Of a stretch of DNA of 64,000 nucleotides, positions 14,023 to 19,417 are shown piece by piece. The position numbers and the translations under genes were made by a program. The notes under the pieces were generated by a model, which did no database searches, had not been told where the DNA came from, and saw nothing but the letters and a program-made list of their open reading frames with translations. Numbering within the stretch: the first letter of the stretch is position 1; every line of letters begins with the position of its first letter. The stretch is from contig NZ_CP058910.1 in NCBI RefSeq assembly GCF_013415885.1, forward strand, positions 2,108,001 through 2,172,000, written 5' to 3'. Source of the DNA: Halosimplex rubrum. GTDB taxonomy: Archaea; Halobacteriota; Halobacteria; Halobacteriales; Haloarculaceae.

Positions 14023-14430
14023 ATGAGTAACCCATGGATAGCCATCGGGGCGCTCGCCGTCGTCGCGCTCGCCATCCCCATCAGCATGATGGTGGTGTCG
14101 TCGCTGCTTCGGCCGAGCGTGCCGGAACAGGGGAAACGCGCCGTCTACGAGAGCGGCGAGATCCCGACGGGCGACACGCGCATCAAGTTCAACATTCAGT
14201 ACTACATGGTCGCGCTGTTGTTCGTCGTCTTCGACATCGAGACCGTCCTCATCTTCCCGTGGACGGTCATCTACCGCGACGCGGTCGCCAACGTCGGACT
14301 CGCCGAGGCGCTGGTCCCGATGCTCGTCTTCATCGGTATCCTCGTCATCGGCCTCGGCTGGGCGTGGCGTAACGGCGCCGTCAAGTGGATCCGCAGCCCG
14401 CGCGCGCAAGCACAGCGGGTCGAACAGTAA
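14023..14430 (+). CDS. nuoA: NADH dehydrogenase-like complex subunit A
   Basis: 135 residues with three membrane segments (~7-27, 64-85, 93-117). YESGEIPTG and IQYYMVALLFVVFDIETVLIFPW are the conserved loop and second helix of NuoA/FpoA. First gene of the complex I-type cluster; Halobacteria have the membrane and connecting modules but no nuoEFG, so the physiological electron donor is not settled. nuoB starts 2 nt after the stop. Confidence 0.97.
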   Translation: MSNPWIAIGALAVVALAIPISMMVVSSLLRPSVPEQGKRAVYESGEIPTGDTRIKFNIQYYMVALLFVVFDIETVLIFPWTVIYRDAVANVGLAEALVPMLVFIGILVIGLGWAWRNGAVKWIRSPRAQAQRVEQ

Positions 14431-14432
14431 CC

Positions 14433-15131
14433 ATGAGCAGCGACCACACACCAACGGCCGACGGCACAGAGACGCAATCGACCCAGGAGGCGCGGCTGGG
14501 TGAGGGAGCGGACGACCGGTTCAACTCGACGTTGCGGGAGGCGTTCGGCTCGACCCCGTTCATCCTCACGAAGTTCGACAAGTTCATGAACTGGGTGCGG
14601 GGCTCGTCGATGTTCATGCTGCAGTTCGGGATCGCCTGCTGCAGCATCGAGATGATGCACACCTACGCGGTCAAACACGACCTCGACCGCTTCGGCGCCG
14701 GCGTCCCGCGCGCCTCGCCGCGGCAGGCCGACGTGATCATCGTCCCGGGGACCATCGTCTCGAAGTTCGCCCCGCGGATGAAGCGCGTCTACGACCAGAT
14801 GCCCGAGCCGAAGTTCGTCGTGTCGATGGGGTCGTGTACCATCTCCGGCGGCCCGTTCCAGGAGGGCTACAACGTCATCAAGGGCGCCGAGGAGGTCATC
14901 CCGGTCGACATCCACGTCCCGGGCTGTCCCCCGCGTCCCGAGGCGCTCGTCTACGGCGTCGCCAAGCTCCAGGAGCGCATCGCCAACGGCGAGTCCGCCC
15001 CGGTGACGGTCAAGCCCTACGAGCTGGAGCAGTTCGGCGACCTCGAACAGGACGAGCTCGTCGACAAGCTCGCCGACGACATCGACGAGGAGGACCTGGT
15101 CATGCGCTACAACTGGAGTGACTCGCCATGA
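14433..15131 (+). CDS. nuoB: NADH dehydrogenase-like complex subunit B (N2 cluster protein)
   Basis: 232 residues starting at MSSDHTPTAD, 2 nt after nuoA. GIACCSIEMMHT provides the adjacent cysteines, SMGSCTISGGP and VPGCPPRPEALV the other ligands of the [4Fe-4S] N2 cluster. The ~45-residue acidic N-terminus is a haloarchaeal extension. The TGA stop overlaps an ATG that opens a 28-codon frame running to nuoCD (see the spacer entry). Confidence 0.97.
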   Translation: MSSDHTPTADGTETQSTQEARLGEGADDRFNSTLREAFGSTPFILTKFDKFMNWVRGSSMFMLQFGIACCSIEMMHTYAVKHDLDRFGAGVPRASPRQADVIIVPGTIVSKFAPRMKRVYDQMPEPKFVVSMGSCTISGGPFQEGYNVIKGAEEVIPVDIHVPGCPPRPEALVYGVAKLQERIANGESAPVTVKPYELEQFGDLEQDELVDKLADDIDEEDLVMRYNWSDSP

Positions 15132-15210
15132 TTTCCGATAGACGGTCTCGGTCGCTTCGCTGCGCGAGCTGCGACTATCGACCTCACGCTCGACACCGGA
15201 GGTGTCTCGC
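15132..15210. other. 79-bp spacer with a hairpin between nuoB and nuoCD
   Basis: All other nuo junctions here are 34 nt or less. This spacer carries CGATAG...CTATCG ends (about 15137 and 15175) around an imperfect GC-rich inverted repeat, and ends in a strong GGAGGTG (15199-15205) that sets the nuoCD start at 15211. The 28-codon frame that spans it (MISDRRSRS...) looks non-functional. It has the look of a small inserted repeat that restored its own ribosome-binding site. Confidence 0.5.
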
Positions 15211-16902
15211 ATGAGCCTGGAGGAGCCCGAGAGCGACATCCTCGCCACGGAGGAGCAGGTCGGCGTCTCCGAGGGCGAGGTCGACTACGACGAGCTCGCC
15301 GCGCTGCTCGGCGACACGGTGATCGACCGCGAGCGCCACGTCAACGCCGAAGGCTTCGTCGTCCGCCCGGACGAGGTGCAGGACGCCCTCTTCGCGCTGC
15401 GCAACGAGGCCGGCTTCGACCACTGTTCCTGTGTCACGGCTCAGGAGTACGACGACCGCTACGAGTCGATCTACCACCTGAAGAAGTACGACGACCCCAC
15501 CCAGGAGGTGTCGGTCGTCGTCCCCACGTCGAAAGACGACCCGGTCAGCCAGAGCGCCGAGCCGGTCTACCGGACGGCCGACTGGCACGAGCGTGAGGCG
15601 TACGACCTCGTCGGCATCGACTACGAGGGCCACCCGGACATGCGGCGGATCCTCCTGCCCGAGACCTGGCAGGGCCATCCGCTCTCCCAGGACTTCAGCG
15701 GCGAGGAGCCCCAGGTCGTCACGCTGCGCGAGCACGCGAACCCGCTTCAGGAGGACCACCGCGGCCAGGACGACACGGACACGATGTTCCTCAACATCGG
15801 TCCCCACCACCCGGCGACACACGGCGTCCTCCACATCGAGACGGTGCTCGACGGCGAGCAGGTCGCCGACCTCGACCCGGACATCGGCTACCTCCACCGC
15901 TGCGAGGAGCAGATGTGCCAGCAGGGCACCTACCGCCACCAGATCATGCCCTACCCCGACCGGTGGGACTACATCTCGGCCGGTATCCTCAACGAGTGGG
16001 CGTACGCCCGCGCGGCCGAGGACCTGGCCGACATCGAGGTGCCCGAGTACGCGCAGGTCGTCCGGACGATGTCGGCGGAGCTGTGCCGGATTGCGAGTCA
16101 CATGCTCGCGGTGTCGACGTTCGCGCTGGACATCTACGGGGACTTCACGGCCCTGTTCATGTACGGCATCCGCGACCGCGAGGCGGTCCAGAACATCCTC
16201 GAGGACCTGACCGGTCAGCGGCTGATGTTCAACTACCTGCGGCTGGGCGGCGTGGCGTGGGACCTGCCCGAGCCCCGCGAGGAGTTCTTCGAGAAGATCC
16301 GCGACTTCGTCGACGAGCTCCCCGAGCGGCTCGCGGAGTACCACGACATGATGACCTCCAACGAGATCCTCCAGATGCGGACGGTCGACACGGGCGTCCT
16401 GCCCCCGGAGGAGGCCAAGTCCTACGGCGCGACCGGCCCGGTCGCCCGCGGGTCGGGCATCGACTACGACCTGCGGCGGGACGACCCCTACGGCTACTAC
16501 GACCAGCTCGACTGGGACGTCGTCACCGAGGACGGCTGTGACAACTTCGCGCGCCTGCTCGTCCGCCTGCGCGAGGTCGAGGAGTCGGCCCGCATCATCG
16601 AGCAGTGCGTCGACCTGCTGGAGGACTGGCCGGAGGACGAGCGGGAGATCCAGTCGAACGTCCCGCGGACGCTGCGCCCGGACCCCGACACGGAGATCTA
16701 CCGCGCGGTCGAGGGCGCCAAGGGCGAACTCGGTATCTACATGCGCTCGGACGGCACGGACAAGCCGGCGCGGTTCAAGATCCGGAGTCCGTGCTTCTCG
16801 AACCTCCAGACGCTGCCGGTCATGTCCGAGGGTGAGTACATCCCCGACATGATCGCCTCGCTCGGCAGCCTCGACATCGTCCTCGGGGAGGTCGACCGGT
16901 AA
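15211..16902 (+). CDS. nuoCD: Fused NADH dehydrogenase-like subunits C and D
   Basis: 563 residues starting at [16 protein letters not shown] with a 5-6 nt spacing upstream favours this ATG over an in-frame GTG at 15202. Residues ~25-185 are NuoC (30-kDa subunit; [24 protein letters not shown]). Residues ~190-563 are NuoD (49-kDa subunit; [24 protein letters not shown], and C-terminal [13 protein letters not shown]). The fusion of C and D is normal in Halobacteria. NuoD forms the quinone cavity with NuoB. The TAA overlaps the nuoH ATG by one base. Confidence 0.97.
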
Positions 16903-17969
16903 TGGCGCCGCTGCAGTCCGCGACGCCGTTCCCGAAGATCATCGCCGACCTGCTCGGGCTCGACACCAACGAGACGTGGGTGATCGTCGTGACGAGCATC
17001 GCCGCCGCGGGCGTCATCGCGACGGTCCTGCTGTCGATGACGGCCGTGCTCGGCATCTGGGGCAAGCGGAAGATCACGGCGGCCTTTACCGACCGCATCG
17101 CCGTCAACCGTCACGGCCCCTACGGGCTGCTGATCATCCCCGCGGACGCCGTGCGCCTGCTCTCGAAGGAACTCATCGTTCCCGAGGGCGTCGACCGCCC
17201 CGCCTGGGACCTGGCACCGCTGATCATCGCCAGCTCCGCGCTGCTCGGCTTCGCGGTCATCCCGTTCGGCAACAACCTGCAGCTGGCCGACCCCGAGACG
17301 GGGCTGGCCTTCGTGTTCGCGGTCGCGTCGATCGCGTCGGCGGGCCTGCTGATGGCCGGCTACGCGTCGAACAACAAGTTCTCGTTCCTCGGCGGGCTGC
17401 GCGCGGTCGCGCAGAACCTCGCCTACGAGATCCCGCTGGTACTGACGGGCGCGTCGGTGGTCATCTTCGCCGGCTCGCTGCAGATGTCGACCATCGTCGA
17501 GATGCAGCGCCAGACGCTCGTCACCCTCGGCGGGATCCCGATCCCGTCGTGGTACGCCTTCGTCAACCCCTTCGCGTTCGTCCTCTTCCTGATCGCGAAC
17601 CTGGCGGAGGTCGGGCGCAACCCGTTCGACATCCCGGAGGCGCCGACGGAGATCGTCGCCGGCTACCAGACGGAGTACTCGTCGGTGTACTTCGTGCTCA
17701 TCTACCTCGGCGAGTTCATCCACATCTTCCTCGGCGGCGCGATCATCGCGACGATCTTCCTCGGCGGCGCCTCGGGGCCGGTGCTCCCGGGCGTCGTCTG
17801 GTTCTTCGTCAAGATGGTCTCCGTCTACCTGTTCACGCAGTGGGCGCGCTCTGCGGTCCCCCGGCTGCGTATCGACCAGCTGATCCAGGTCGGCTGGAAG
17901 GGCATGCTCGTCCTTTCCTTTGCCAACCTGGTCCTGACCGCCGTCATCGTCGGGGTGGTCAACGCGTGA
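16902..17969 (+). CDS. nuoH: NADH dehydrogenase-like complex subunit H
   Basis: 355 residues with about eight membrane helices. The family signatures GPYGLLIIPADAVRLLSKE and EVGRNPFDIPEAPTEIVAGYQTEYSS are both intact; the latter includes the acidic loop at the quinone tunnel. NuoH links the peripheral arm to the proton-pumping membrane arm. It starts inside the nuoCD stop codon, and nuoI follows after 34 nt. Confidence 0.97.
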   Translation: MAPLQSATPFPKIIADLLGLDTNETWVIVVTSIAAAGVIATVLLSMTAVLGIWGKRKITAAFTDRIAVNRHGPYGLLIIPADAVRLLSKELIVPEGVDRPAWDLAPLIIASSALLGFAVIPFGNNLQLADPETGLAFVFAVASIASAGLLMAGYASNNKFSFLGGLRAVAQNLAYEIPLVLTGASVVIFAGSLQMSTIVEMQRQTLVTLGGIPIPSWYAFVNPFAFVLFLIANLAEVGRNPFDIPEAPTEIVAGYQTEYSSVYFVLIYLGEFIHIFLGGAIIATIFLGGASGPVLPGVVWFFVKMVSVYLFTQWARSAVPRLRIDQLIQVGWKGMLVLSFANLVLTAVIVGVVNA

Positions 17970-18003
17970 CCCCGACACCGACGGCGCGCGGAGGTGACTC
18001 CCA

Positions 18004-18465
18004 ATGATAGGCATCCTCAAGTCGATGGCAACGACGATGAAACACGCGCTCGACGGCGAGACGTTCACCGTCGAGTATCCCGAGACCCCGCCGGAAGTGA
18101 GTCCGCGCTTCCGCGGCGTCCACAAGTTCAGCCAGGAGCGCTGCATCTGGTGTCGCCAGTGCGAGAACGTCTGCCCGAACGACACCATCCAGATCGTCAC
18201 CGACGACCAGCGCAACGGCGAGCAGTACAACCTCCACATCGGCCAGTGCATCTACTGCCGCCTGTGCGAGGAGGTCTGCCCCGTCGACGCCATCCTGCTC
18301 ACGCAGAACTTCGAGTGGACCGCCGACACCAAAGACGAGTTCGTCCTCGACAAGGAACAGCTCAAGAACGTTCCCTGGTACAAGGACATCGACCCGCTCG
18401 AATCCCGTGAGCCTGACCGGGGCGGCTGGATCGGCGAAGGCGACGGCGAAGTGGACTATCAGTAA
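18004..18465 (+). CDS. nuoI: NADH dehydrogenase-like complex subunit I (2x[4Fe-4S])
   Basis: 153 residues. Two CxxCxxCxxxCP clusters are seen: CIWCRQCENVCP and CIYCRLCEEVCP, both intact. GGAGGTG lies 7 nt before the ATG. NuoI passes electrons to NuoB. In Halobacteria nuoJ1-J2-K-L-M-N normally follow immediately; here they are absent from the window and the gene is followed by a repeat-rich stretch with a second copy of its own 3' end. Confidence 0.97.
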   Translation: MIGILKSMATTMKHALDGETFTVEYPETPPEVSPRFRGVHKFSQERCIWCRQCENVCPNDTIQIVTDDQRNGEQYNLHIGQCIYCRLCEEVCPVDAILLTQNFEWTADTKDEFVLDKEQLKNVPWYKDIDPLESREPDRGGWIGEGDGEVDYQ

Positions 18466-18886
18466 GCGGCTGTCCGTTTCTACTGTCCGCGCGAACGGAG
18501 CGAGCGCGGTTCCCCGGACGCGAGCGAGCGAAGCGAGCGAGTCGTCCGGATTTTTCGCCCACGTTTTTCGAGTCGAGCGGGACCGGAGGTCCCGCTGACC
18601 GTGCGAGTGGGCGCCGAGCGCCCACGAGCAGAGAGCGGTTCCCGCAGGGAGCGTAGCGACCGAGGAAACCCGACGAGAAAAAGGTGGTGGCCGTCGACCC
18701 GCTCGAATCCCGTGAGCCGGACCGGGGCGGCTGGATCGGCGAAGGCGACGGCGAAGTCGACTACCAGTAGCCCGCCACTCGTTTTCTGTCCGCGCGAACG
18801 GAGCGAGCGCGGCGGTTTCTGCCCGCGAGCGCAAATGCGGCGTCGACCCAAATAGCGATAGGGCCTCGGCCCGAACACGACAGTAG
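18466..18886. repeat. Repeat-rich junction after nuoI
   Basis: 421 bp without an intact gene. The last ~75 bp of nuoI and the ~45 bp after it (including CTGTCCGCGCGAACGGAGCG at 18483 and 18786) recur with an offset of 303-305 bp. Between the copies lie several hairpins: CCGGAC...GTCCGG followed by ATTTTT (about 18514-18555, terminator-like), GGGACC...GGTCCC (near 18579-18593) and GTGGGCGC...GCGCCCAC (near 18607-18625). It reads as a partial tandem duplication plus haloarchaeal repetitive sequence. Confidence 0.7.
18696..18770 (+). pseudogene. Second copy of the nuoI 3' end
   Basis: The last ~24 codons of nuoI (from DPLESREPDRGG to GEVDYQ) are repeated with only a few silent changes and a TAG instead of TAA stop. 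There is no start or upstream nuoI sequence, so it is not a gene. It marks a duplication or recombination breakpoint. Confidence 0.85.
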
Positions 18887-19417
18887 ATGAGTGCAGATTC
18901 GCTCGACCTGTACGAGACCCAGCGGCGGACGCTGACAGTGCTGGTGAACGAGTACCAACAGCGCGATTCGCCGGTGAACTCGACCGTCCTCGCCGAGCGG
19001 ATGGACCGAACGCCGGGGACGATCAGGAACAAGATGCCCCAGCTGGAGTCGCTGGGTCTGGTCGAAGGCGTCGCGGGGCCCACCGGCGGATACGAACCGA
19101 CGGAGAAGGCGTTTCAGGTCCTGAATCGGGATCCGGACACCGAGCGCGAGCCGGTGACGGTCGCCCACGACTTCGAGCGCGTCGACGCGACCGTCGAGAG
19201 CGTCTCGTTCACGAACGTGAACCACCCGACGGACTGCCGGGCCTGGGTGGAGTTCCAGACGGCCATGCCGTCGCTCGAAGTCGGCGACCCCGTCGCCATC
19301 GGTCCGACCGCTCGGGCGGGCCTCGTCGTGGCCGGCGAAGTTCACACCACCAACGACACCGGCAACCGGATCTCGCTGACGATCAGTCGGATGGAGGCGC
19401 CGGTCACCGACGAGTGA
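18887..19417 (+). CDS. Helix-turn-helix regulator of the archaeal Rrf2/TrmB-like type
   Basis: 176 residues. Residues ~5-75 are a winged helix of a type common in archaeal regulators: ETQRRTLTVLVNEYQQRDSP, then VLAERMDRTPGTIRNKM and LGLVEGVAGPTGGYEPT as recognition helix and wing. Residues ~80-176 are a beta-rich domain (VESVSFTNVNHPTDCRAWVEF, VGDPVAIGPTARAGLVVAGEV) that may bind a ligand. Relatives often carry C-terminal CBS domains; here the second domain is different. Targets unknown. It directly follows the nuo breakpoint and shows no functional link to it. Confidence 0.8.
   Translation: MSADSLDLYETQRRTLTVLVNEYQQRDSPVNSTVLAERMDRTPGTIRNKMPQLESLGLVEGVAGPTGGYEPTEKAFQVLNRDPDTEREPVTVAHDFERVDATVESVSFTNVNHPTDCRAWVEFQTAMPSLEVGDPVAIGPTARAGLVVAGEVHTTNDTGNRISLTISRMEAPVTDE

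Follow-up and report, generated by a model that had tools for sequence, protein, structure and literature searches.

Doubled nuoI end in Halosimplex rubrum as probably one of a dispersed group of gene-end duplications anchored at hairpins in Haloarculaceae

Palindromic repeats without a transposase of their own are well known in haloarchaea, namely, the PATEs of Haloquadratum, the SMRs, and the MITEs (PMC3119063). The elements described in this study are likewise short, dispersed, palindromic, non-coding, and haloarchaeal, and show no clear target-site duplication; unlike PATEs, SMRs, and MITEs as described in PMC3119063, they are accompanied by a duplicate of the 3' end of the gene in front and follow a fixed junction rule. 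They also resemble the bacterial REP, REPIN, and BIME sequences (RAYT transposases), which are imperfect hairpins at gene 3' ends that sometimes occur in tandem. The repeated units of REP, REPIN, and BIME are not known to contain a host-gene tail. Elements integrated at gene 3' ends, such as prophage e14 in icd, carry an integrase and are kilobases long. As with e14 in icd, the gene 3' end is doubled here, with mostly synonymous differences, and the gene is left intact, but the present units measure about 0.2 kb, lack genes, and occur at many different hosts. Diversity-generating retroelements, too, have a near-copy of a gene 3' end downstream and a hairpin after the gene end; their variation is adenine-directed, whereas the differences seen here are synonymous and sparse and the hosts are housekeeping genes. 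Lastly, gene conversion in polyploid haloarchaea would homogenize neighbouring repeats, yet alone it explains neither the origin of the copies nor the junction. In the mainly openly accessible literature covered, no description was found of repeats that include the end of the preceding gene and join it in this way. At a probability of roughly 0.6, the doubled nuoI end is regarded here as a member of a dispersed family of hairpin-anchored tandem gene-end duplications that are homogenized by recombination.

The doubled nuoI end and its hairpin element

The window, i.e., the whole stretch of 64,000 nucleotides that was analysed, corresponds to C1:2108001-2172000 of the Halosimplex rubrum genome (G000; one contig, 4.48 Mb); the Halosimplex relatives compared include H. 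carlsbadense, H. aquaticum, H. pelagicum (G005), and H. salinum. Profile matches place all of the complex I subunits A, B, CD, H, and I in the window on the plus strand, namely, nuoA (14023-14430; PF00507, E 3.5e-32), nuoB (14385-15131; PF01058), a nuoCD fusion (15202-16902; PF00329 and PF00346), nuoH (16902-17969; PF00146), and nuoI (18004-18465; two 4Fe-4S motifs). The element's host gene is nuoI, of which strongly conserved orthologues are present in nearly all 118 family genomes. The initial annotation had reported that the nuoI end is present twice, 305 bp apart, and this was borne out: nuoI's own 3' end (tail 1, repeat D1, 18389-18465) is repeated on the same strand, stop codon included, as tail 2 (18694-18770), at a level well above chance (blastn E about 1e-32). 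The repeated unit measures 77 nt, or 25 codons plus the stop; the tails differ by three third-position changes and by their stops (TAA/TAG), and all 25 encoded residues are the same. Similarity picks up again beyond the stop in a GC-rich stretch of 27 bp (repeat D3, 100% identity, plus strand), the first copy of which is the hairpin 1 region after tail 1 (18483-18509) and the second a truncated second unit after tail 2 (18786-18812). A whole-genome sequence search found no third copy of the nuoI tail, and no Rfam match was obtained at E<=1 across 17900-19000.

Between the two tails lies, on the plus strand, a hairpin element at 18551-18687 that runs from T5-CGCCCACG-T5 (18551-18568) to GAAAAAGGTGG (18677-18687). 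It is followed by the junction TGG-C-CG (18688-18693), in which a triplet and an inserted C precede a deletion, as judged by comparison with the ancestral junction read by eye. The next gene is an HrcA-type winged-helix regulator (18887-19417, plus strand; PF03444, E 4e-24), in agreement with the earlier statement that an unrelated regulator stands in place of nuoJ-N; it is nuoI's downstream neighbour in most Halosimplex examined (near nuoI in G000, G002, G003, G004, and G005).

The element is dispersed and can be described as an imperfect hairpin, T5-N8-T5 ... A5-GGTGG. Matches to the nuoI spacer region were found at 35 further sites of the H. rubrum genome, in which the motif GAAAAAGRTGG occurs 34 times against 4 times for the reversed control; like REP and REPIN sequences, these are many-copy extragenic imperfect hairpins. 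A common fold is shared by 35 short elements: CCA(N) pairs with (N)TGG, a mismatch or wobble lies beside T5/A5, and a stem with an internal loop follows. At stem positions 1-4, pairing is maintained by CG as well as GC pairs and in most cases exceeds that of shifted controls. Pairing was counted with both element ends anchored, since RNAalifold, when applied to a MAFFT alignment, returned no structure owing to unequal loop lengths and misaligned right ends. The terminal inverted pairing is imperfect, the triplet repeat differs from a simple flanking duplication, and a parent transposon was not found. In a viral scan, the octamer core had one match, apparently coding and unrelated. The genome also holds two intact IS200-type (Y1_Tnp) genes (G000:C1:107578-107916 and 2014427-2014765) inside 1.85-kb copies that are 99.9% identical; the T5/A5 hairpin motif is absent from the 3.3-kb loci of both, so that, as far as these two loci go, the elements do not resemble PATEs or other IS200/IS605 derivatives. 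A sister element type, T5-CACCCATG-T5 ... AAAAAGATGG, has a similar abundance (G000 GAAAAAGATGG sites, e.g., L233, L244-L247, and L255-L260) and is without gene-end copies in G000. Some elements of the GGTGG type that lack a gene-end copy adjoin apparent tRNA 3' ends in reverse orientation (L238, L313, L332, L298, L304, and L324); TGG within GGTGG would then be complementary to CCA.

In some 16 genomes from eight genera, the final 75-86 nt of nuoI are copied about 110-230 bp past the stop, and shorter remnants of 25-31 nt are found in G004, G030, and L128; Halorientalis salina has three nuoI tails. The DNA between the tails is always GC-rich and palindromic; it contains two T5 runs that enclose CGCCCACG, GGTCCAGC, or a similar sequence, as well as a second hairpin and AAAAAGGTGG or something close to it, and no recombinase gene lies in these spacers of 108-228 bp. 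Junction bases are common to several genera, e.g., GGTGGGGTCGCGAGGACATCGACCC or a near variant. Gene tail and hairpin together form a unit of which two or three copies sometimes occur. Tandem second units follow tail 2 in G067, L128, L179, and G028, and such whole second units fit a tandem duplication. In H. pelagicum, which was sequenced independently, the orthologous copy has the same junction. With copy and junction shared by independent assemblies of other species, and gene order agreeing across the genus, an assembly error is extremely improbable.

Location of nuoJ-N and an inversion relative to the sister genus

A genome-wide search for nuoJ-N and what precedes it found nuoJ1, J2, K, L, M, and N complete on the minus strand at C1:2399250-2405468, 279 kb from nuoA-I (nuoJ2, which has no Pfam match, was assigned by position). 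The membrane arm subunits J, K, L, M, and N are hence encoded in the genome, though not within a single nuoA-N operon, and the suggestion that the strain had lost the pumping arm does not hold. Of the other option that had been put forward, i.e., that the rest of the complex is encoded elsewhere behind another nuoI tail, the first part stood and the second did not, given that the genome search gave no third tail and that no nuoI tail lies upstream of nuoJ in any Halosimplex. A gene that we take to be DUF7520-like is found upstream of nuoJ at a similar spacing in 8/8 Halosimplex genomes. Both nuo parts are present in the same 8/8 genomes and, where they are on one contig, lie 43-279 kb apart on opposite strands; since the separation of nuoJ-N is genus-wide, it is not a strain event.

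In the sister-genus genome G014, nuoI and nuoJ are on the same strand with a gap of 0.57 kb, and the DUF7520-like gene and cox1 are situated 35 kb downstream of nuoI/nuoJ on the other strand. In G006 and G005, the counterparts of about 17 G014 genes at 27-60.6 kb have the opposite orientation and, with one exception, the opposite order, while the flanks of this block, nuoCD-nuoI and cox1, keep their orientation. Judging from gene order, the separation of nuoA-I and nuoJ-N is a single ~35-kb inversion relative to the sister genus; its breakpoints, at nuoI|nuoJ on one side and at a convergent gene pair next to the DUF7520-like gene on the other, explain the Halosimplex order, and the greater nuoI-nuoJ distance in H. 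rubrum must reflect changes after the inversion. Because the nuoJ side is without any tail, the tail copy appears unrelated to the inversion, and the separation is probably ancestral and independent of the copy.

The initial annotation had read the identical tails as the trace of a recombination that cut the nuo operon and moved or removed nuoJ-N, and the tails do stand where nuoJ would be expected. Besides the missing tail at nuoJ, nuoI tail copies also exist where nuoJ follows within 0.3-0.9 kb (G064, G044, G085, and G036), and the same structure is found after unrelated genes. Copies thus occur whether nuoJ is adjacent or distant, and many genes unrelated to nuoI have them as well; they are therefore no scar of a nuo rearrangement, and this reading has become very improbable.

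Directly upstream of nuoJ, a stretch (CTTCAAAGGGCGTCC) is conserved in Halosimplex and the sister genus (G000:C1:2405469-2405735 and G014:C23:25646-26216), which suggests that nuoJ-N may have its own promoter. In other haloarchaeal families, nuoJ mostly follows within about 150 bp after nuoI; among Haloarculaceae, gaps of 0.3-10 kb are common and the two genes are far apart in further genera, and from these wide and variable gaps it follows that the nuoI-nuoJ junction has often changed in the family. Two genomes from the genus Halorientalis, L175 (G054) and L181 (G027), have an additional nuoCD-like gene (558 aa) in the interval from nuoI to nuoJ. ABC-transporter genes occupy this interval in G034 and in several members of genus g2 (L172, L191, L192, L204, and L206); the junction therefore accepts unrelated genes. 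Two complete nuoI genes are present in G082 (C1:2650072 and 341549), and in the MAG QS_6_71_20 a decayed nuoI-like remnant occurs just upstream of nuoJ, about 1.4 kb past the intact nuoI (L097, +1388..+1450).

Gene-end copies after other genes and the junction rule

Sites with GAAAAAGGTGG (here referred to as GG sites) in eleven Haloarculaceae genomes were scored by whether sequence in front of the element recurs behind it as a direct repeat. Among GG elements with a T5 partner, 45/67 carry a copy and about a third are without a detectable one, in a choice of genomes that favoured Halosimplex and nuoI-bearing genomes. Copies were found at 1/19 GAAAAAGGTGG sites without a T5 partner (chance 11-mers) and at 3/18 GAAAAAGATGG (GA-type) sites with a partner (Fisher p 1.7e-6 and 2.8e-4, respectively, against 45/67); a more sensitive test of GA-type sites gave one marginal copy in 16. 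The repeats after GG elements are nearly always the 3' end of the gene in front and span its last 9-60 codons. Hosts named by inspection of protein ends rather than by profile search include pheT, spt5, argF, dapD, ilvD, citrate synthase (gltA), etfA, thiolase, cysteine desulfurase, methionine aminopeptidase, and a Rieske protein, and purE is a host in Halapricum. In Haloarcula, copies are present at 6/21 sites, including one at an apparent citrate synthase; three of the six fall outside the motif definition used. Several host genes bear the element in more than one genus, which fits one ancient event per gene as well as target preference.

Could such loci be relics of integrative elements that used gene 3' ends as attachment sites, the tails being attL and attR as for e14 in icd? 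The inserts are indeed flanked by direct repeats of a gene 3' end with mostly synonymous differences, and some of the elements without a copy adjoin apparent tRNA 3' ends. Nevertheless, palindromic inserts of 108-228 bp are too small for an integrase, more than 20 different host genes each have their own tail, and the repeats run beyond the stop as tandem units, all of which makes this origin improbable.

The copy starts at the hairpin foot according to a simple rule: GGTGG is followed by a triplet of the gene's own, identical to the one that the gene has immediately ahead of the copied stretch; next come 1-2 inserted nucleotides (C, T, CC, CT, or CA) and, after them, gene sequence. This triplet rule applies in 23/27 junctions (4- or 5-nt spacers), compared with a mean of 0.56 and a maximum of 5 for random upstream triplets in 2000 draws. 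Related species share junctions (TCTC in L241, L312, and L331; CAGC in L263 and L315); as orthologous elements do so, the 27 junctions are not all independent events. Simple microhomology at GTGG, as seen in nuoI, was considered and fails at other genes, and a constant guide beside the hairpin was ruled out, since the triplet varies next to an unchanging flank. A point against the template switch favoured below is that ordinary switching at microhomologies is less regular than the fixed 3+1 junction.

Gene-end copies are more similar to the gene beside them than to its orthologues, and nuoI tail 2 is nearest its own tail 1, over any other tail, in 14/16 genomes. The differences between nuoI tails are 38 synonymous to 3 nonsynonymous (frameshifted G086 copy left out); for the other genes they are 71 to 37, i.e., the total minus three nuoI loci, including the doubtful frames L315 and L317 and the divergent L284. 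Expected synonymous fractions are 0.23-0.40, or 0.37-0.40 for a neutral copy next to a gene under purifying selection; the p-values for the synonymous excess (1e-13 for nuoI and 8e-8 for the other genes) are optimistic, since related genomes were counted as independent. This excess over a neutral copy might also be expected if the second tail were functional itself, for instance as an alternative exon that is translated or as a signal in the 3'-UTR, and were kept coding in place by selection. The copy, however, sits past a stop codon and a strong hairpin, is entered with a frame offset of 1-2 nt, and is missing from most genomes, and a function of this kind is therefore hardly to be expected. 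The synonymous pattern fits exchange between the tails, through which either would be able to serve as the gene's real end. Horizontal replacement was considered as the sole source of the pattern; it is possible for G028, in which nuoI tail 2 is nearer to tail 1 of G043 than to its own tail 1, and need not be invoked for every gene.

Possible origin and meaning of the copies

From the observed pattern we infer how gene ends may have become duplicated in tandem. A strand with its 3' end 4-5 nt beyond the folded hairpin, made spontaneously or through cutting by a putative hairpin-recognizing enzyme, would re-pair via three bases with the same triplet in the gene. Extension of the re-paired strand (template switch) would then copy the gene tail and the hairpin again. 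Later homologous recombination between neighbouring tails in the polyploid chromosome would lead to exchange and homogenization, and with each tail at times being the real gene end, both would be kept coding.

A rather unlikely alternative is that a Y1/HUH transposase acting in trans, in the style of IS200/IS605 or REP/RAYT, mobilizes the hairpin as a mini-element by cutting 4-5 nt beyond the hairpin foot, a one-ended capture taking the host gene tail along. The precise junction would be accounted for if the cut always fell equally far from the imperfect hairpin, the copies are dispersed, H. rubrum has the two Y1_Tnp genes mentioned above, and palindrome elements free of a transposase exist in haloarchaea (PMC3119063). 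Set against this, neither IS200-type locus has the T5/A5 motif, and no constant guide could select a triplet that varies per site beside a constant hairpin flank. Tandem duplication with later exchange is thus preferred here. A bolder and tentative reading is that the copies represent archaeal elements of a new class, whose spread or amplification takes the host gene's 3' end along, the copied tail providing homology for exchange within and between genomes. Since each integration would copy the gene tail, the gene would never be broken; if true, many Haloarculaceae housekeeping genes would bear self-healing insertions.

The doubled nuoI end is no damage to the respiratory complex, and a truncated tail downstream of an intact gene need not signal gene loss in annotation. 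The junction rule is testable, with examples in Haloarcula. Species of this genus are considered genetically tractable. Short palindromes repeated at the ends of genes are usually considered extragenic; here, the unit takes in the last codons of a gene, with a precise junction, and is kept coding. This bears on the origin and spread of palindromic repeats, on the identity of neighbouring repeats in polyploid archaea, and on why gene ends in the genomes considered here resemble recombination points.
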